Assembly (NCBI GenBank): GCA_028288485.1 | Contig: JAQBNO010000213.1 | Coordinates: forward strand, 1-45,091 | Length of the DNA stretch: 45,091 nt | Direction of reading: 5' to 3' | DNA from: Segetibacter sp. | GTDB taxonomy: Bacteria > Bacteroidota > Bacteroidia > Chitinophagales > Chitinophagaceae | Notes under the pieces: model-generated | What the model was told of the DNA's origin: nothing | What the model saw: the letters and a program-made list of their open reading frames with translations, nothing else | Database searches by the model: none | In this document: piece after piece, positions 8,450 through 40,816 of the stretch | Layout: every line of letters begins with the position of its first letter | Numbering within the stretch: position 1 is the first letter of the stretch | Translations under genes and position numbers: made by a program

Positions 8450-8692
8450 GCCGCTAACACCTAAAGAGGATGACAGGTGATTTCGAAGCAATTAAATATT
8501 CAATACACAACGTTCAATACTCAATGTTCAATTAAAAAAATCAGGTTGTTGCTTCATTGAATATTGAACAGTAAAAATTGATTGTTCATTTCTTCAATCA
8601 AAAACCAACAGTACAAGTGAGTGACACAACGATGTTGAACAAGGTTATGCAGCTTGTAAACAAAAAAATAATCGAATAAAAATCATTAGTGT
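8450..8692. other. Intergenic stretch with inverted repeats between phosphatase and kinase genes
   Basis: This 243-bp gap holds no gene. It contains TTCAATACTCAATG (8513-8526), which pairs at 13 of 14 positions with CATTGAATATTGAA (8555-8568), plus a third half-copy, TATTCAATAC, at 8497-8506. A copy of the dispersed repeat follows at 8615-8668. The hairpin has a 28-base AT-rich loop and no clean U-tract, so a terminator or processing role is uncertain. Confidence 0.6.
8615..8668 (+). repeat. 54-bp repeat element upstream of the TerY-P kinase gene, shared with rpoC leader
   Basis: A 25-base block at 8615-8639 beginning AAGTGAGTGACACAACGATG is followed by 11 unmatched bases and then AGCTTGTAAACAAAAAAA (8651-8668). 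Both blocks and the 11-base spacing are repeated exactly on the minus strand at 34737-34790, just upstream of rpoC. The element ends 24 bases before the GTG of the kinase gene. It may act in the leader or carry a promoter, or may simply be a repeat that tends to land between genes. Confidence 0.8.
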
Positions 8693-30264: not shown

Positions 30265-30290
30265 GTACAAGTGAGTGACACAACGATGTT
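30265..30290 (+). repeat. Short copy of the dispersed repeat, 3' of rpoC
   Basis: GTACAAGTGAGTGACACAAC followed by GATGTT; positions 30269-30290 are identical over 22 bases to the copies at 8615 and 34790. It is oriented towards rpoC, so rpoC is flanked by inverted copies. Confidence 0.75.
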
Positions 30291-30419: not shown

Positions 30420-33400
30420 TCATTCCTCATCATCAAAGTTCATTGCTTCACGGGCTGTAGCCAGTAATTCATATTCTTCTTTGCTACCAACAACCATGTT
30501 TTCAAACTCTCTCAATCCTGTACCCGCTGGTATAGCATGACCGGTAATAACGTTTTCTTTCAATCCGAGCATATCATCGGTTTTACCCATAATAGCTGCA
30601 GAGCTTAATACTTTTGTTGTTTCCTGGAACGATGCAGCAGAGATCCAGCTTTGTACACCCAGTGATGCTTTGGTGATACCAAGCAATAATGGAGATGAAG
30701 TAGCAGATTCGGCATCCCTGAATTCCACCAGTTTCCTGTCGCTTCTGCGAAGGATAGAATTTTCTTCTCTCACTTCTCTTAAGCTTACAATTTGCCCCGC
30801 TTTCAACTTCGTGCTTTCACCCGAGTCAACCACCACCTTCTTATCGAAGATGTAATCGTTTTCTTCGTTGAATTCAATACGGTCAACAGTATCACCTTCA
30901 AGGAATCTTGTATCGCCCGGATCCTGGATTTCAACTTTCTTCATCATCTGGCGAACGATTACTTCGATGTGTTTATCGTTGATACGCACACCTTGTAAAC
31001 GGTAAACCTCCTGGATTTCATTTACCACATATTCCTGAACTGCGAAAGGACCTTTGATTGCAAGAATATCGGCAGGAGCGGTAGAACCGTCGGATAAAGC
31101 TGTACCAGCTTTAACGAAGTCGCCATCCTGTGCAAGGATCTGGCGTGTCAATGGTACTAAGTACTTTTTAACAACACCATCTCTTGCTTCAACAATGATT
31201 TCACGGTTACCACGCTTGATGTTACCAAAGCTCACCACACCGTCAATTTCAGAAACAACTGCAGGATTACTTGGGTTTCTTGCCTCAAATAACTCGGTTA
31301 CTCGTGGAAGACCCCCGGTGATATCTCTTAGTTTACCTAATACCCTTGGAATTTTCACCAATACCTGTCCCTGCTTCACTTCTTCGCCTTCCTCTAACAC
31401 AATGTGACTTCCTACAGGAAGGTTGTACATTTTTGTTTCCTTCGCACCTTCTACAATCAAACCCGGTATTTTTGTCTTATCCTTGGTTTCAATTACTACT
31501 TTCTCACGGTGACCTGTTTGTTCATCAGCCTCTTCACGATAAGTAACACTATCGATAATGTTTTCAAACTTAATAGCACCTGAAATTTCAGAAACAACGA
31601 CATTGTTGAACGGATCCCACGAACAGATACTTTGTCCTTTGGTCACAGTTTGTCCATCTTTTACCAGTAGAGAAGCTCCATAAGGAACGTTACTGGTTAT
31701 TAATAAACGGTCGTTCTTCACATCCATAATCCTTACTTCACCTGTACGACCTATAACAACTTTTACTTTATCGCCGTCATTGTTTACTGTATCTACAGTA
31801 CGTAAACCGTCAAATTGAACCGTACCATCAAACTTAGCATTCAATGTACTTTCTACAGATGCTGAACCAGCCACACCACCCACGTGGAATGTACGAAGTG
31901 TTAACTGAGTTCCTGGTTCACCGATTGATTGTGCTGCAATAATACCTACAGCATCACCACGTTGTGCAGTATAACCTGTTGCAAGGTTTTTACCATAACA
32001 ACGTACACAAACGCCACGTTTAGCTTCACAAGTCAACACAGAACGGATTTCAACTGTTTCAATTCCAGCTTCCTCGATTGCTTTTGCGATGTCCTCATCT
32101 ATCTGGTGTCCTGCTTCTACAAGCAATTCATCGTTAACAGGGTTAAGTACATTGTGCAATGAAGTGCGTCCCAAAATCCTATCGAACAATGGTTCAACTA
32201 CATCCTCGTTATCTTTCAAAGCGCTCGTAGCTATACCACGAAGTGTACCACAATCTTCTTCAGTAATAACAACGTCTTGCGCAACGTCAACCAAACGACG
32301 GGTTAAGTAACCGGCATCTGCAGTTTTCAATGCTGTATCCGCCAAACCCTTACGGGCACCGTGTGTTGAGATGAAGTAATCCAATACGTTCAGTCCGCCC
32401 TTAAAGTTGGAAAGGATTGGGTTTTCGATGATCTCGTTGCCTGAGCTACCACTCTTACGAGGTTTAGCCATCAGTCCCCTGATACCAGCCAACTGTTTAA
32501 CCTGTTGCTTACTACCACGGGCACCTGAGTCAAGCATCATATATACAGAGTTGAAGCCCTGCTTGTCTGTTGCCATTTCACGAATCAATGTTTCGGTTAT
32601 ACGAGTATCTACTCTCGACCAAATGTCAATGATACCATTATATCGTTCGTTATTGGTAATAAGACCCATGTTGTAGTTATCCCACACTTCCTCGACTTCG
32701 GCTTTCGCATTATCAAGTAACTGGTTCTTAATTTCGGGTATGATCAGGTCATTGATGTTGAATGACAAGCCACCTTTAAACGCCATACGGAAACCAAGAG
32801 TCTTGATGTCATCAAGGAACTTAGCTGTTTTAGGAACATCAGTGATTTTTATAATGTCACCAATAATCTCCCTAAGACTTTTCTTGGTAAGAAGCGCATT
32901 TATATAACCAACTTCTTTAGGAACAAACTGGTTAAACAATACACGGCCGGTAGTTGTTTCGATTAATTTCTGGTACAACTCACCTTTACTAGTTCTTACT
33001 AAAGTTTTCACCCTAATATGAGCGTGCAGGTCGACTTGCTTTTCATTATAAGCAATAATTACTTCCTCCATTGAGTAGAAAGCCCTGCCTTCACCTTGTA
33101 CTTTATCTTCCTCTGTGCTCTTTCTGCCCTTGGTAATGTAATACAGACCCAATACCATGTCCTGCGAAGGAAGGGTGATGGGCGTACCATTCTGTGGGTT
33201 AAGAATGTTGTGAGAAGAAAGCATCAACAACTGGGCTTCAAGGATTGCAGCGTGGCTTAGTGGTACGTGTACCGCCATCTGGTCACCATCAAAGTCAGCG
33301 TTAAATGAAGTGGTAACCAACGGGTGAAGCTGGATAGCCTTTCCTTCAATTAATTTCGGTTGGAAAGCCTGGATAGATAAACGGTGCAATGTTGGGGCAC

Positions 33401-34715
33401 GGTTTAGCATGATCGGATGGCCTTTCAATATATTTTCAAGTATATCCCAAATAACTGCTTCTTTTTTATCAACTAATTTCTTCGCAGACTTTACAGTTTT
33501 TACGATACCTCTTTCAATCAGCTTACGAATAATAAATGGTTTGAATAGCTCGGCAGCCATGTCTTTTGGAAGACCGCACTCGTGCATTTTCATTTCAGGT
33601 CCTACCACGATAACCGAACGACCAGAATAGTCAACACGTTTACCAAGTAAGTTCTGGCGGAAACGACCTTGCTTACCTTTCAATACGTCGGAAAGAGATT
33701 TCAAAGCACGTCCACCTTCAGCTTTAACAGCGTTTGATTTTCTTGAGTTATCAAACAAACTGTCGATAGCCTCCTGCAGCATCCTTTTTTCGTTACGTAA
33801 GATTACCTCAGGTGCTTTAATCTCTAACAAACGCTTTAAACGGTTGTTACGGATGATGACACGACGGTATAGGTCATTCAAGTCAGAAGACGCGAAACGA
33901 CCGCCATCAAGAGGTACTAACGGGCGAAGTTCAGGAGGAATAACAGGAATATACTGCATTACCATCCACTCCGGGCGGTTGGTAATACGGGTATTTGCAT
34001 CACGGAAACTTTCCACAACACTCAAACGTTTCAAAGCATCAGCCTTACGTTGTTGTGAAGTTTCATGTGCCGCAGCATTTCTTAAGTCGAATGATAACTG
34101 ATCCAGGTCAATTCTTTGCAACAGGTCGTGAACCGCTTCAGCACCCATTTTTGCAATGAACTTGTTTGGATCTTCATCAGGAAGATATTGGTTGTCTTTT
34201 GGTAAAGCGTCCAAAATGTCAAGGTATTCTTCTTCAGTAAGCAAATCACCAAAGTTTTGACCTTTATCTGCACGAATACCGGATTGAATAACTACGAAGC
34301 GCTCATAGTACACAATCGTCTCTAATTTCTTAGAGCTCATTCCTAACAGGTATCCAATTTTGTTCGGCAACGATTTAAAGTACCAGATGTGAACAACAGG
34401 AACAACCAGTTTGATGTGTCCCATTCTTTCGCGACGTACTTTCTTTTCAGTAACCTCAACGCCGCAACGGTCGCACACGATACCCTTATAACGGATACGT
34501 TTGTATTTACCGCAGGCACATTCATAATCCTTCACCGGACCAAAGATCCTTTCGCAGAACAAACCGTCTCTTTCGGGTTTGTACGTACGATAGTTGATGG
34601 TTTCAGGCTTTAAAACCTCACCGAAGCTCTTTTCAAGGATACTGTCGGGAGATGCCAGGCCAATCGTTATCTTAGAAAACGTAGGCCTTGGACGGTTATC
34701 TTTTTTAATTGCCAT
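30420..34715 (-). CDS. rpoC: DNA-directed RNA polymerase subunit beta'
   Basis: A full-length beta' subunit of 1431 residues, the usual Bacteroidetes size. The N-terminal zinc site [13 protein letters not shown]...CDRCGVE is intact, as are [20 protein letters not shown], the active-site [14 protein letters not shown] with three catalytic aspartates, the bridge-helix/trigger-loop segments ([36 protein letters not shown]) and the second zinc site [13 protein letters not shown]. No frameshift is seen. It normally follows rpoB within a few dozen bases, but here rpoB ends 991 bp upstream, beyond hairpins and a dead ORF6N gene, so rpoC probably needs its own promoter. A 54-bp repeat element lies 21 bases before its ATG. 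Its 3' end has a strong terminator. Confidence 0.99.
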
Positions 34716-34736
34716 ATTTCGTAACTCCGATTTTAC

Positions 34737-34790
34737 TTTTTTTGTTTACAAGCTTTAGTGGTTGCTTCAACATCGTTGTGTCACTCACTT
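34737..34790 (-). repeat. 54-bp repeat element directly upstream of rpoC
   Basis: On the minus strand, 34790-34766 is the same 25-base block as at 8615-8639. An 11-base unrelated spacer follows, then AGCTTGTAAACAAAAAAA (34754-34737), identical to 8651-8668. It ends 21 bases before the rpoC ATG, as its twin ends 24 bases before the kinase GTG. It may hold the rpoC promoter or act in the leader; no TAnnTTTG match is present. Confidence 0.82.
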
Positions 34791-34809
34791 CAGCTTTTAG
34801 AATGTTTAA

Positions 34810-35339
34810 TCACCATTCTTTTTTAAATCCAATTCTTTCAGCTCTTTCTTTCGGTTGTTCAACCAGTCTTTTAATGTAGCTAAAGATCAATTCTATTTGT
34901 TCATTATGTTTGTCTGTCTTCTTCTCCGGTTGCTCCGGTTTCACTAAAATATCCTTATGCATTATCAGCAATTCCTTCATCTTCGAGTAAACCCTCATAA
35001 TCTGGAAGTTTACCTGGATCGCCTGTTCGCTCCGCAAAACACTCGTCAACATTAGTACTCCATGCCCGGTAAAGGCGTAAGGAAGATATCGACTACCACC
35101 CCTGTTAGTTTTGTTTGAGGTCACAATTTGTCACCTCAAAGTTTCAAATTCATAATCATCCAATTCGAACATGAAGTCATTGGGAAATCTTTCGATGTTC
35201 CTTCTAACTGCTTGCTTTAAGGCTTTCGTGCAACTCCATACATTTCTGCCAAGTCAGAATCAAGCATCACCTTTTGTCCTCCAATCAGGTATATTTTACT
35301 CTCAATTAAAGTTTCAGTGATTTGAACTGATTGACTCAT
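34810..35339 (-). pseudogene. Broken ORF6N-domain (phage antirepressor-like) gene between rpoB and rpoC
   Basis: From ATG 35339 the minus strand encodes MSQSVQITETLIESKIYLIG and VMLDSDLAEMYGVARKP, the ORF6N domain start. One base is then missing (about 35221), shifting to LKQAVRRNIERFPNDFMFEL. An in-frame TGA (35131-35133) interrupts FETLR-stop-QIVTSN. The rest, GGSRYLPYAFTGHGVLMLTS, VLRSEQAIQVNFQIMRVYSK and a lysine-rich tail, is open from 35124 to 34810 (104 residues). Repaired, it would be about 176 residues, normal for ORF6N proteins, which are DNA-binding proteins common in phage and mobile regions. The 104-residue remainder lacks the DNA-binding half and is unlikely to work. Its position inside the rpoBC unit is exceptional. 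Confidence 0.85.
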
Positions 35340-35549
35340 AAAATTGTACAGTTGAGTTGTTCAAGGTCGCAATTGTGAGCTTGAAATTGCAAAACACGCA
35401 GTGTACTGTCTATATGGCTGCTTGTTGTTGAAAGCGTATAAGTGTGCGACGCAACAATGACTCCAGACGTGTTGTTGCTCGGACCAAAAAAATGATCTTG
35501 ACAATTAGCATTACATCTAAAACGTAAACAAAACCTGAAAGAACTTAAG

Positions 35550-35586
35550 AAAAACTTGACGACGCTTTTTGCGTCCTCAAGTTTTT
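35550..35586. terminator. Strong hairpin downstream of rpoB, probable terminator
   Basis: AAAAACTTGA (35550-35559) pairs with TCAAGTTTTT (35577-35586), then a C/C mismatch, then GACGC with GCGTC around loop TTTTT. Read on the minus strand it ends in a T-run 121-157 bases after the rpoB stop, so it could end rpoB transcripts before rpoC. Confidence 0.75.
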
Positions 35587-35597
35587 GTATTTATGAG

Positions 35598-35628
35598 AAT
35601 TGGAGGTCACAAAATGCGACCTCCAATT
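35598..35628. repeat. Perfect 11-bp inverted repeat after rpoB
   Basis: AATTGGAGGTC (35598-35608) and GACCTCCAATT (35618-35628) flank ACAAAATGC. The core GAGGTCACAA also occurs in the near-palindrome at 35114-35140 inside the ORF6N remnant, and a variant, AAGGTCGCAA, at 35363-35372. It may be a terminator arm, a protein site, or a leftover of ORF6N coding sequence. Confidence 0.65.
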
Positions 35629-35706
35629 CCATTTCATTTCCCATTTTTCAGCATTCCCTCATTTGCACAAAATCGATCTCTAAAAATCCTGAAAATCATG
35701 GTTCTG

Positions 35707-38700
35707 CTATTCAAATTTCAAATCCAATCCTAAACCTCTCAACTCATGTACAAGTACATTGAACGATTCTGGTATACCTGCTCTTGGAACGTTTTCACCT
35801 TTCACAATCGCCTCATAAGTCTTCGCACGACCAATGATATCATCAGATTTCAACGTCAACAATTCCTGTAAGATGTTAGATGCACCGTATGCTTCAAGTG
35901 CCCAAACCTCCATCTCACCAAAACGTTGTCCACCAAACTGGGCCTTACCACCAAGAGGCTGTTGAGTGATCAAACTGTACGGTCCGATTGAACGGGCGTG
36001 CATCTTGTCATCAACCATGTGGTGCAACTTGATGATATAGATAATACCAACAGTTGTCTTTTGTTCAAAGCGCTCACCGGTTTCTCCATCGTATAAGTAG
36101 GTATGACCAAATAAAGGCAAACCTGCTTTTTCAACGTTCTCTGCAATTTCTTCAACGGTAGCACCGTCGAAGATTGGAGTTGCAAAGCGAACACCTAGTT
36201 TCTCCCCCGCCCAGCCAAGTACAGTTTCATAGATCTGACCAAGGTTCATACGACTTGGTACACCAAGTGGGTTAAGAACGATGTCAACAGGAGTACCGTC
36301 CTCCAGGAAAGGCATGTCTTCAGCACGAACGATTTTAGCTACGATACCTTTATTTCCGTGACGACCCGCCATCTTATCACCCACTTTCAGTTTACGCTTT
36401 ACAGCCATGTAAACTTTTGCAAGTTTCAGTACACCGGCAGGTAATTCATCTCCAATCGAGATATTGAACTTTTCTCTCTTATAACGACCTAATTCTTCGT
36501 TGTACTTGATGTTGAAGTTGTGTAACAAGGTGTTGATCTGGTCGTCAGTTTTTGCATCACCCGTCCATCCCAAAGGATTTACGTTCTGGTAATCTATCTG
36601 AGACAGGTTCTTCTGGTTAAACTTCGAACCTTTACCGATCAGGACTTCACCGAAGTTGTTGCTAACACTTGCAGATGGTTTGTCTTTCAACAAAGTCTGT
36701 AATTTTTCGAGCAAAACTTCCATGATATCTTCTACATTCTTCTCGTGCACTTTCTCAATTTTCTCAAGAATTGCTTTCTCACGAACTTTAGTGTTCTTAT
36801 CTTTCTTAGCCCTCTGGAATAATTTCTTGTCAATTACAACACCTTCAGTTCCGCTTGGTGCTTTTAATGAAGCATCTTTTGCATCACCGGCTTTATCACC
36901 GAAGATGGCGCGTAACAACTTCTCTTCAGGAGTTGGATCGCTTTCACCTTTTGGAGTGATCTTACCAATAATGATATCACCTTCTTTAATCTGAGCACCA
37001 ATACGAATGATACCGTTCTCATCAAGATCTTTGGTAGCTTCTTCACTAACGTTAGGAATATCGGGAGTGAGTTCCTCTTCACCTAATTTAGTATCACGTA
37101 CTTCCAGTTCAAATTCTTCAATGTGAACTGAAGTAAACCAGTCTTCACGAACTACTTTTTCGTTGATAACGATAGCATCCTCGAAGTTGTAACCTTTCCA
37201 CGGCATGAAAGCCACTTTCAGGTTTCTACCTAAAGCAAGCTCTCCGTCGCGTGTTGCGTAACCTTCAGTTAAGAAATCGCCTTCTTTTACCACTTGTCCT
37301 TTGTAAACAGAAGGACGAAGGTTGATACAGGTGGCCTGGTTTGTCTTGATGAACTTGGTTAATTTGTAGATAATCAAATCCTCTTCAAAACTTACAAGCT
37401 TTTGTTCTGCATTTCTTGTATAACGAACGTGTATTTCTTTCGCGTCAACAAACTCTACCACACCATCACCTTCTGCATGAATTTGAATTCTTGCGTCACG
37501 TGCTGCTTTACCTTCCAAACCTGTACCTACGATAGGAACTTCAGGACGGATTAACGGAACAGCCTGGCGTTGCATGTTCGATCCCATCAGTGCACGGTTT
37601 GCGTCATCGTGCTCAAGGAACGGAATTAGGGAAGCACTCAAACCAACAATCTGGTTAGGAGCAACGTCCATGTACTCCACTTCTCCTTTATCTAATATCG
37701 GGAAGTCTCCGGTCTGACGGCTTACAACCCTGTCTTCTGCAAATTCGCTGTTTCCGTTTAATGGAGAACTTGCCTGGGCAATTTTCTTAAGATCTTCCTC
37801 TTCAGCACTTAAAAAGGTCAATGTCTTCATGTCCACTTTACCGTCATTCACTTTATGATAAGGAGTTTCGATAAAGCCCATCTCGTTAATCTTTGCGTGA
37901 ACGCAAAGCGTAGAAATCAAACCGATGTTCGGCCCTTCAGGTGTTTCAATAGTACATAAACGGCCGTAGTGGCTATAGTGCACATCACGAACTTCAAAAC
38001 CAGCTCTCTCACGACTTAAACCTCCGGGTCCAAGTGCTGAAATACGACGTTTGTGCGTAATTTCAGAAAGCGGATTAGTTTGGTCAAGGAACTGTGATAA
38101 CTGGGAAGTACCAAAGAACGAGTTAATAACGGAAGAAAGCGTTCTTGCATTGATCAGGTCAACGGGGGTAAATACCTCGTTGTCACGTACATTCATTCTT
38201 TCACGGATGGTACGGGCCATACGGGCAAGACCAACTCCAAACTGTGCATATAACTGCTCACCCACCGTACGAACACGACGGTTACTTAAGTGATCAATAT
38301 CATCAATCTCAGCCTTACTGTTAGTTAAGCGAACAAGATATTTGATGATCTCAATAATGTCTTCCTTCGTTAATACTTTCTTCTCGATCGGGAAGGTTAA
38401 ACCAAGTTTACGGTTGATCTTGTAACGACCAACTTCACCGAGGTCATAACGCTTGTCGCTGAAGAATAACTTGTCGATGATACCACGTGCAGTTTCGTTA
38501 TCAGGAGCATCAGCACCGCGCAGTTGGCGGTAAATGTGCTGAACCGCTTCTAACTCACTGTTTGAAGTATCTTTATTTAAAGTGTTATAGATGATAGAGT
38601 AGTCACCGCTCACTTCTTCTTTCTGAATAAATACGCTTTTAACATCCATTTCAGAAATGGTTTCAATTGCGCTTTCATCCAGAACTGTATCTCTTTCCAT

Positions 38701-39510
38701 CACCACTTCGTTTCTTTCGATAGAAACTACCTCACCGGTATCTTCATCAACGAAGTCTTCTACCCATGTACGAAGTACACGTGCAGCTAATTTTTTACCT
38801 AAAAAGTTATCAAGAGATTTTTTCTCAGCCTTAACTTCATCAGCCATGCCGAAGAGCTCAAGAATGTCCTTATCAGTTTCGAAACCAATAGAACGTAACA
38901 AAGTTGTTACAGGGAATTTTTTCTTACGGTCGATGTAAGCATACATTACATTATTAATGTCTGTAGCAAATTCCATCCACGCACCTTTGAAAGGAATTAC
39001 CCTGGCAGAGTAAATCTTAGTTCCATTGGGGTGAACAGACTGACCGAAGAATACACCAGGTGAACGATGTAGCTGGCTAACGACAACTCTTTCAGCGCCG
39101 TTAACTACGAAAGTACCGCGAGGTGTCATGTAAGGAATATTTCCAAGAAACACATCCTGAACGATGGTCTGGAAATCGATATGCTCTTCATCGTTACAGC
39201 TAAGGCGAAGCTTGGCTTTAAGAGGAACCGCATAAGTTAAACCGCGCTCCATACACTCTTCAATAGAGTAACGTGGCGGGTCGATGAAATAATCCAGGAA
39301 TTCCAGTACGAAAATGTTACGAGTGTCTGTAATAGGAAAGTTCTCCTTAAACACGCGGAACAGGCCTTCTACGTTACGTTTATCAGGCGTCGTCTCTAAC
39401 TGAAAAAAGTCCTGGAAAGATTGTAACTGAATGTCGAGTAGGTCAGGTGTTTCTGATAGATTTTTGATCTTCCCGAAACTGACCCTGTTCTGAACTTTAG
39501 TTGAAGACAT
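35707..39510 (-). CDS. rpoB: DNA-directed RNA polymerase subunit beta
   Basis: A complete beta subunit of 1267 residues. The frame opens at 39552, but ATG 39510 ([15 protein letters not shown]) is the expected start. The rifampicin region reads [20 protein letters not shown] then [20 protein letters not shown]; residues equivalent to E. coli D516, H526 and S531 are the sensitive type, while the N518 equivalent is [35 protein letters not shown] and the C-terminal [20 protein letters not shown] are all intact. Unusually, no rplL or other ribosomal gene lies within 1.3 kb upstream, and rpoC is 991 bp downstream. A consensus -7 box at 39647 suggests its own promoter with a leader of about 130 bases. 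Confidence 0.99.
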
Positions 39511-40816
39511 ATATATTATTAACCGGTTTTGTTCAAAAAAATTCAGGCGCAAGCACTGAAAAACAGGATACTGAATTCAGGCACCTTCGGATTAATGGCC
39601 ATATCCGTAGATGCAGTTGCTAACTTGCCTAAAATTAAAAGGAACGCAAAGGTAAGGAATGAAAATAATATGGGAAAAACAATTTTTATACCAAAAATGT
39701 TAATGTGAAAAAACAAAATGTTTCTATTTTACATTAATATTTCTTATTGATAGCACCATTTCCGGGGAGGAAATATCCAAGTGGTAAAAGTACAGGTTAT
39801 TTAAGTCTTAAAAGTTCCGGGCGGAGGAATTTTTTTTGAGACAGACTTTGAGTTCCCTGGTTTTGCTTTTGTTGCGTCGCATTTCGTTCATCAGTTATAC
39901 GGCTATTTAGCTATGACTGCAAAAGGTTTTTCAAATCACTTCCACTAAATGCCGGTATTAGGATAATTGTACCCGCTGTTAGTTCAACGGTTTGTTCCAC
40001 ATAGGTTTGCCCTTCAAGAGAGTATTACAACAATGATGAATTAGGGAACGAAAGTTTGCCCCATAAGTAAAACAGTATTTGTTCGTTAATTTTTGTTCGT
40101 TCCCGGTTCCGTCATTTTAATTGCCGCGGGTAGAACGTCTTTTAACTTTTACTTTATAGATGCTGTTTCATCTGGGTGCATTTTCTAAAATGCATTCACG
40201 GGTTATTTTTTGGATTGTGCTCGGGTCCACAAGTCGGGGGGCTTCCATCAAGGGAGGCAGATACATTCCAAACTGCCCGTGAACGCCTTTTTTCAAGCCA
40301 TACCATCCGCACGAACGTCGGTTTGGCGCTATGGGCCAGGCTGCGACAGTTCCTTCTTTTGCAGTTTCTGTTAGTCTGTATTGCCAACTTCTAACCAGTC
40401 GCTATGTACTAAATCATTCATTAGAGGTCTTCGATACCCCTATTTATAATGAAGGGAAGTGCCGCCCACTTCGCAATAAAATTGAAGAATTTACAGGGTC
40501 AGCCCTATACATCGCATACCGCCCTCTGGCGGAAGGTGTTTTTAATTCCCACAGACTTTCATTGGCACTGGCGCCTTTTACCTTCTCGATGTTACTCTTC
40601 GCTGTAAAAGATAGGCAAAAAAATGTGTGGCACTTTAAACATTCCAGGCCGGTCTTGTGGGCTCGACCCCTTGTACTGCTGCGATTACGATGGCACCGGA
40701 TTTCATGCAAAACCTTCTCCCCATGCAAGTAACAAATTCTGTTGTTGCGTTATATTACCCACCTTCCCTTCTCACACCAAATAATATTTAGTTAACTTAC
40801 CCAACAAAGTTTTTTA
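39511..40816. other. 1.3-kb stretch upstream of rpoB without a convincing gene
   Basis: It holds the rpoB leader and promoter (39647-39654) and an inverted repeat GGGAACGAA/TTCGTTCCC (40044-40052 and 40096-40104). From about 40190 to 40735 there is a visibly more GC-rich block, beginning with TTCACGGG/CCCGTGAA (40195-40202 and 40276-40283). In that block both strands stay open for 60-130 codons in overlapping frames, with no family match, no plausible start and odd composition. It may be a repeat, a structured RNA or a remnant; I do not call a gene. The divergent neighbours (rpoB on -, 40817 on +) leave room for regulatory sequence. Confidence 0.5.
39647..39654 (-). promoter_or_regulatory. 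Candidate -7 promoter box for rpoB
   Basis: The minus strand reads TACCTTTG, an exact TAnnTTTG match, 137 bases before the rpoB ATG. With no upstream gene on this strand in the window, this is the best candidate for the rpoB start site. Confidence 0.55.

Follow-up and report, generated by a model that had tools for sequence, protein, structure and literature searches.

A broken ORF6N gene and ORF6N-type palindromes between rpoB and rpoC of Segetibacter, in a family where the two genes are often apart

Results

Organization of the rpoB–rpoC locus

rpoB and rpoC are commonly taught as inseparable, with a shared transcript that balances the beta and beta′ subunits of RNA polymerase. In the 45,091-nt stretch of Segetibacter DNA analysed here (the window), rpoC (beta′ subunit) occupies positions 30420–34715 and rpoB (beta subunit) positions 35707–39552, both on the reverse strand and both covered along their length by matches to RNA polymerase Pfam domains; the probable ATG start of rpoB is near 39510. 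The gene ends bracket exactly 34716–35706, confirming the 991-bp separation described in the initial annotation. From rpoB towards rpoC, the spacer contains hairpins H1 and H2, one copy of a dispersed repeat (35441–35457, forward strand), an ORF6N pseudogene in two frames, a second repeat copy (34789–34773), and then rpoC.

The order and direction of rpoB and rpoC are those of the rplKAJL-rpoBC operon, but Segetibacter differs from that operon in that rplL is elsewhere, rpoB has a promoter box of its own and rpoC lies 991 bp off. rplL was found on another contig, near the contig end, and rplA, rplJ and rplL are still grouped away from rpoBC. That position, in a draft genome (G000) of 220 contigs, could point to an assembly error or chimera as the source of the arrangement. 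However, a single contig carries rpoB, the spacer and rpoC internally, a genome of another genus that was assembled separately (G016) has the same arrangement, and the contamination estimate is 1.28; an artefact of this kind appears highly improbable. No Rfam family reached its gathering score anywhere in the window, and the sole match in the spacer region was sub-threshold (rli40, 18.7 bits at E 0.062, where the gathering score is 100).

The repeat copy at 35441–35457 has the variant sequence AGTGTGCGACGCAACAA, and the copy at 34773–34789 (reverse strand), about 60–75 nt ahead of the rpoC start, has the variant AGTGAGTGACACAACGA. Further copies with the two-variant core lie at 8616–8632 and 30270–30286 of the window, on the forward strand. 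The repeat is about 60 bp long. Its AGTGAGTGACACAACRA-type core is present at 277 exact places in the 6.4-Mb genome and the variant AGTGYGCGACGCAACRA at 298 places within one mismatch, and the two sets may overlap a little; a reversed-pattern control gave 0. None of 33 sampled copies was inside an open reading frame, and the gene at the A-run side pointed to the copy in 22 of 32 cases. Copy number ranged from 0 to 604 across 60 genomes of the family. Ten linked genomes, from several genera, have a copy at a similar distance ahead of rpoC (G016, G025, G038, G049, G068, G098, G100, G103, G129 and Segetibacter). The repeat sequence was not found in the open-licence literature.

The spacer contains a broken ORF6N gene

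Two pieces of the pseudogene, both on the reverse strand, matched the ORF6N family PF10543 above its curated cut-off of 27.8 bits. The N-terminal piece, in the first frame, lies at 35181–35300 (30.5 bits); the main and C-terminal piece, in the second frame, lies at 34810–35229, where the match (73.3 bits over 35038–35229) is interrupted by one TGA. The open part of this second piece (34810–35124) scored 20.2 bits by itself, below the cut-off. The frame is thus not intact, and the single frameshift and single stop of the initial annotation are borne out by the PF10543 matches in different frames and the TGA inside the second.

The open C-terminal piece and an intact ORF6N copy of Segetibacter both match PHROG anti-repressors (PHROG 4792). 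Relatives of an intact Segetibacter ORF6N protein were present in 5 of 50,697 phage records. The spacer copy is broken, whereas the intact ORF6N genes compared with it are short stand-alone chromosomal genes that carry a palindrome within the gene.

Stand-alone ORF6N genes carry a palindrome at a fixed place

In the pseudogene this palindrome is at 35114–35140 (z −4.6), its centre 54 nt before the FTE motif. To compare genes, windows were anchored on the FTE motif, and the best score of 12-pair arms, counting Watson–Crick pairs, was compared with that of other windows of the same genes; loci without the anchor motif were dropped (10 of 33 in the family and 7 of 29 in the phylum set, 17 of 62 together). 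At the fixed place the mean was 10.7 of 12 pairs in family genes (n = 23), against 6.9 in other windows, and 10.4 in phylum-set genes (n = 22), against 6.8. At least 10 of 12 pairs were found there in 19 of 23 and 17 of 22 genes respectively (36 of 45), and in only 2 of 374 windows elsewhere in the genes. The pseudogene follows the same pattern; the three long phylum-set ORF6N genes in the list (351–488 aa) scored 6–7. When position was left free, a near-perfect palindrome was present in 29 of 32 ORF6N genes, a few of them off the fixed place, against 58 of 935 chunks of rpoC. An arm-shuffle comparison gave 0.940 against 0.619, a result biased by the choice of loci for having palindromes, for which the FTE-anchored test is fairer. 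The palindromes were listed from 35 locus records, some of which are the same place, and searches with a looser motif gave locus counts unlike those of the anchored test.

From gene to gene the two palindrome arms covary, and conservation of the protein is therefore not a sufficient explanation for them. Template switching during replication is another source of in-gene palindromes, but by itself it would not account for a single fixed place. Dispersal of the palindrome as a genome-wide repeat was rejected, since the whole Segetibacter genome contains just the two spacer copies and two places with three mismatches.

Similar palindromes were also found around ORF6N genes, 16 in total, spread over 11 of the 50 loci; 40 control loci gave 0.08 over an equal length. 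These flanking palindromes are not specific to their own gene: the mean Hamming distance was 10.2 to its palindrome and 11.0 to those of others, with no clear difference. Two ORF6N loci (L351 and L353) have three to five tandem palindromes with a spacing of about 120–128 bp. As a single gene with palindromes in and around it, ORF6N resembles REP sequences and their associated transposases. It differs from them in having no transposase domain, as no such Pfam match was obtained at E 0.001 in the intact ORF6N copy or the open pseudogene piece (the Pfam matches of ORF6N are ORF6N itself and a weak Rha match), and in that its flanking palindromes are no closer to their own gene's palindrome than to those of other genes. 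No account of the in-gene palindrome was found in the open-licence literature, nor in passages of PMC6591296.

Two strong hairpins follow rpoB

Hairpin H1 (35597–35629) lies directly after rpoB and is followed by H2 (35550–35586). Folding of 35590–35636 gave −26.4 kcal/mol for H1 (z −8.4) and folding of 35540–35596 gave −21 kcal/mol for H2 (z −7.3); in neither case did any of 200 shuffles equal the native sequence. A third palindrome, near 35340–35400, was discarded as its z of −0.09 is no better than that of shuffles. Compared with 34 in-gene palindromes from ORF6N genes, H1 and H2 are 1 and 4 mismatches respectively from the nearest one, over 27 positions. Random palindromes made from the shuffled H2 arm came to 4 mismatches in 1 of 5000 trials.

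The initial annotation had called these hairpins terminators. Their strength is real, far beyond shuffles, but the label was not confirmed: a scan of 34400–35900 for consensus terminators gave no match, H1 has no following U-tract, and the five U of H2 sit inside the stem. Both hairpins are nevertheless strong, and H2 could terminate transcription. Strong hairpins are also frequent in linked rpoB–rpoC spacers elsewhere. They were present in 42 of 76 such spacers of the family, counting that of Segetibacter and otherwise covering spacers of 40 to 600 bp, and in 24 of 37 from other Bacteroidota, a hand-picked set of loci not titled Chitinophagaceae (some titled just Bacteroidetes) in which three of fitting length were overlooked. 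Hairpins as a sign that rpoC stands alone were rejected on this frequency in linked spacers, which mostly lack the promoter box described below. Among genomes with separated genes, 42 of 47 have strong hairpins within 130 nt after rpoB. This rate, higher than that in linked spacers, fits a terminating role in some genomes and is evidence against pure read-through.

We think it reasonably probable, as part of the explanation developed below, that H1 and H2 are palindromes of the ORF6N kind rather than structures that evolved as rpoB terminators; as such they need not be terminators.

Promoters upstream of rpoB and rpoC

The −7 box of the primary sigma factor of Bacteroidota is given as TAnnTTTG in PMC7366714. 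An exact predicted box, TACCTTTG, lies about 140 nt upstream of rpoB at 39647–39654 on the reverse strand, with a matrix score of 28.3 compared with a median of 29.9 for the rpoC promoters of separated genomes; our rpoB promoter survey assumes a single rpoB length for all genomes. The matrix was built from 38 sites upstream of rpoC with widely spread scores (10th percentile 8.8, minimum −28.1).

Exact TANNTTTG was found upstream of rpoC in 40 of 48 genomes in which the genes are not adjacent, compared with 5 on the opposite strand and a Markov expectation of 13.6, mostly 150–215 nt from the start codon; the remaining eight also lack an exact box there. These 48, taken from 51 non-adjacent genomes, leave aside two with in-operon insertions (G125 and G140) and one on a short contig (G135), and keep G041, whose 4.2-kb spacer holds one gene. 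Linked spacers had an exact box in only 3 of 84 cases (opposite strand 3, expected 5.1), and none of 73 reached a matrix score of 8.8. In the 991 bp of the Segetibacter spacer the rpoC strand lacks an exact TANNTTTG, while the other strand has one; the top matrix site of the spacer scores 1.0, which puts it just above its shuffles, 17 of 200 of which attain that value.

The initial annotation inferred from the hairpins that rpoC probably depends on its own promoter. Such a promoter is unlikely in the Segetibacter spacer; 42 of the 76 linked spacers have strong hairpins, and the box that most non-adjacent genomes (40 of 48) show ahead of rpoC is missing from this one. A fuller form of that proposal, in which rpoB transcription ends at the hairpins and a non-canonical promoter within the spacer drives rpoC, draws on the strength of the two hairpins, on the wholly separated relatives, which run rpoC with its own box and so indicate that this type of cell tolerates separate control, and on the slight excess of the best matrix site over shuffles. 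Neither scan would pick up a weak promoter or one for an alternative sigma factor. Set against this are the 991 bp of rpoC strand without an exact −7 box, a score of 1.0 where the 10th percentile of real sites is 8.8, and the strong hairpins common in linked spacers that have no promoter. We regard this proposal as possible but somewhat unlikely. Our best guess from these comparisons is that transcription starting at the rpoB promoter would read through into rpoC.

Age and origin of the insertion

When the 147 genomes of the family sample were searched with the open C-terminal ORF6N piece, the closest foreign match was in G016, a member of another genus (63% identity, 134.6 bits; the next match scored 105.5). 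The G016 gene also sits between rpoB and rpoC, which are 536 bp apart, and the two spacers align with 71% identity over 351 nt. In G098, which belongs to the same genus as our genome and has an RpoC 97% identical to its own, the spacer is 185 bp long and has no ORF6N; rplL is about 450 bp from rpoB in that genome. The insertion is probably old, and its description as an old, accommodated one is supported by the best ORF6N match at the same site in another genus. Comparison with relatives, in which uniformly empty short spacers were to indicate a strain-recent event, gave a mixed answer: most are empty, that of G098 included, but that of G016 is not. Together, G016 and G098 imply either an insertion before both genera with subsequent loss in G098, or two insertions at the same site.

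Independent entry of ORF6N into the G000 and G016 spacers would make this spacer a place that attracts such insertions. Besides the absence of the gene from G098, another single-gene insertion at the site, a 23S-rRNA-IVP gene in G089 and G097, speaks for this, as do ORF6N genes located, by coordinates, between rplL and rpoB in G126 (contig C21) and, in G108 (contig C10), some 2.7 kb ahead of rpoC. The G000 and G016 copies are, however, mutual best matches by a wide margin among 147 genomes and can be aligned at the nucleotide level, and none of 137 genomes besides these two has ORF6N within 1.6 kb (more for long spacers) upstream of rpoC. Independent insertion therefore seems to us unlikely, a degree more so than a non-canonical rpoC promoter.

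Other genes were also seen between rpoB and rpoC. The 23S-rRNA-IVP genes (PF05635) of G089 and G097 lie in spacers of 493 and 454 bp respectively. The spacers of G125, G140, G111, G056 and G041 have long open frames in the same direction, by eye glycosyltransferase-like or membrane-protein-like, with one long secreted-protein-like frame. ORF6N insertion as a general first step in separating rpoB from rpoC was rejected: the gene was absent from the 1.6 kb (more in a few genomes) upstream of rpoC in 135 of 137 genomes and, in 48 genomes with separated genes, from the stretch of up to 1.5 kb that follows rpoB.

rpoB, rpoC and rplL are taken apart repeatedly in the family

Both genes were obtained from 136 of the 147 family genomes; the nearest named loci come from Chitinophagaceae such as Paraflavitalea and Niabella, and the sample was taken to represent that family. 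They are linked, in order and no more than 2.5 kb apart, in 85, with a median gap of 111 bp; only two linked gaps (1004 and 2067 bp) exceed the 991 bp of Segetibacter. In the other 51 they are not adjacent, being 2.8–4.5 kb apart in 3, at least 26 kb apart on one contig in 18, and on different contigs in 30, so that the two genes are wholly apart in 48 of 136 genomes. In all 30 different-contig genomes at least 1 kb of contig extends beyond one of the genes without its partner, and separation was also found in five single-contig genomes (G018, G055, G114, G116 and G141). The statement in the initial annotation that rpoB and rpoC are adjacent in nearly all bacteria thus fails in this family. 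In six genomes of several genera (G061, G072, G143, G008, G114 and G035) rpoB and rpoC point the same way with 37–44 kb between them, a layout that would suit a single intervening block.

On a tree of RpoC (5 of 137 sequences omitted for length, 3 outgroup rows added) the linkage label requires 11 changes, 9 of them forced by starred branches, compared with a mean of 39.5 after shuffling. The 11 include G125 and G140, in which same-direction genes were inserted within the operon; about nine are needed without them. The changes are few compared with shuffled labels, yet there are several, which indicates that separation is clustered on the tree and at the same time recurrent.

Beyond the family but within its class, rpoB and rpoC are linked in 64 of 67 classifiable genomes among the matches listed, with a median gap of 60 bp; that sample, among the matches listed, comprised 106 genomes, of which 24 had one row only and 15 had no match or no row. 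Among 80 named loci, rpoB is directly upstream of rpoC in 76 and not within 8 kb in 2, and 2 could not be judged. The distance between rplL and rpoB within the family, calculated for 132 genomes with a single rpoB length assumed for all, is at most 2 kb in 41, 2–30 kb in 21, and rplL is elsewhere in 70. We found no account in the open-licence literature of repeated taking-apart of rplL, rpoB and rpoC within a family.

Discussion

The sequence shows a broken ORF6N gene, palindromes of its type, a second genus with the same site occupied, a spacer without a −7 box on the rpoC strand and a box ahead of rpoB. The explanation that we favour, with fair though far from complete confidence, is that the spacer is what is left of an old insertion of a single ORF6N gene with palindromes of its own kind. 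A phage-antirepressor-like ORF6N gene would have inserted, together with such palindromes, between rpoB and rpoC, and would then have decayed. rpoC would have gained no recognizable promoter and would still receive transcription that starts ahead of rpoB and passes hairpins like those also found in linked relatives. These hairpins may trim the level of rpoC by attenuation. Read-through, attenuation and the age of the insertion are the parts that we infer. The explanation has a cost, in that the same-genus genome G098 lacks ORF6N, which requires either that the gene was lost in G098 or that it inserted twice independently.

A wider proposal would treat the stand-alone ORF6N genes of Bacteroidota as self-recognising palindrome elements, the protein being predicted to bind its own in-gene palindrome and nearby copies, that drop into operon spacers; at rpoB–rpoC the two left-over hairpins would act as a built-in beta/beta′ attenuator, an intermediate toward full separation. 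We consider this whole scheme decidedly unlikely. The covarying palindrome at a fixed codon position in a widespread family of DNA-binding genes is nonetheless a candidate operator that would be easy to test.

The repeated taking-apart of rplL, rpoB and rpoC across the family outweighs the single spacer of Segetibacter. With the genes separated in 48 of 136 genomes, mostly with a canonical rpoC promoter, the balance of beta and beta′ becomes testable by comparison of linked and separated relatives, and Segetibacter, with its long spacer, strong hairpins and no visible promoter, is a useful borderline case.
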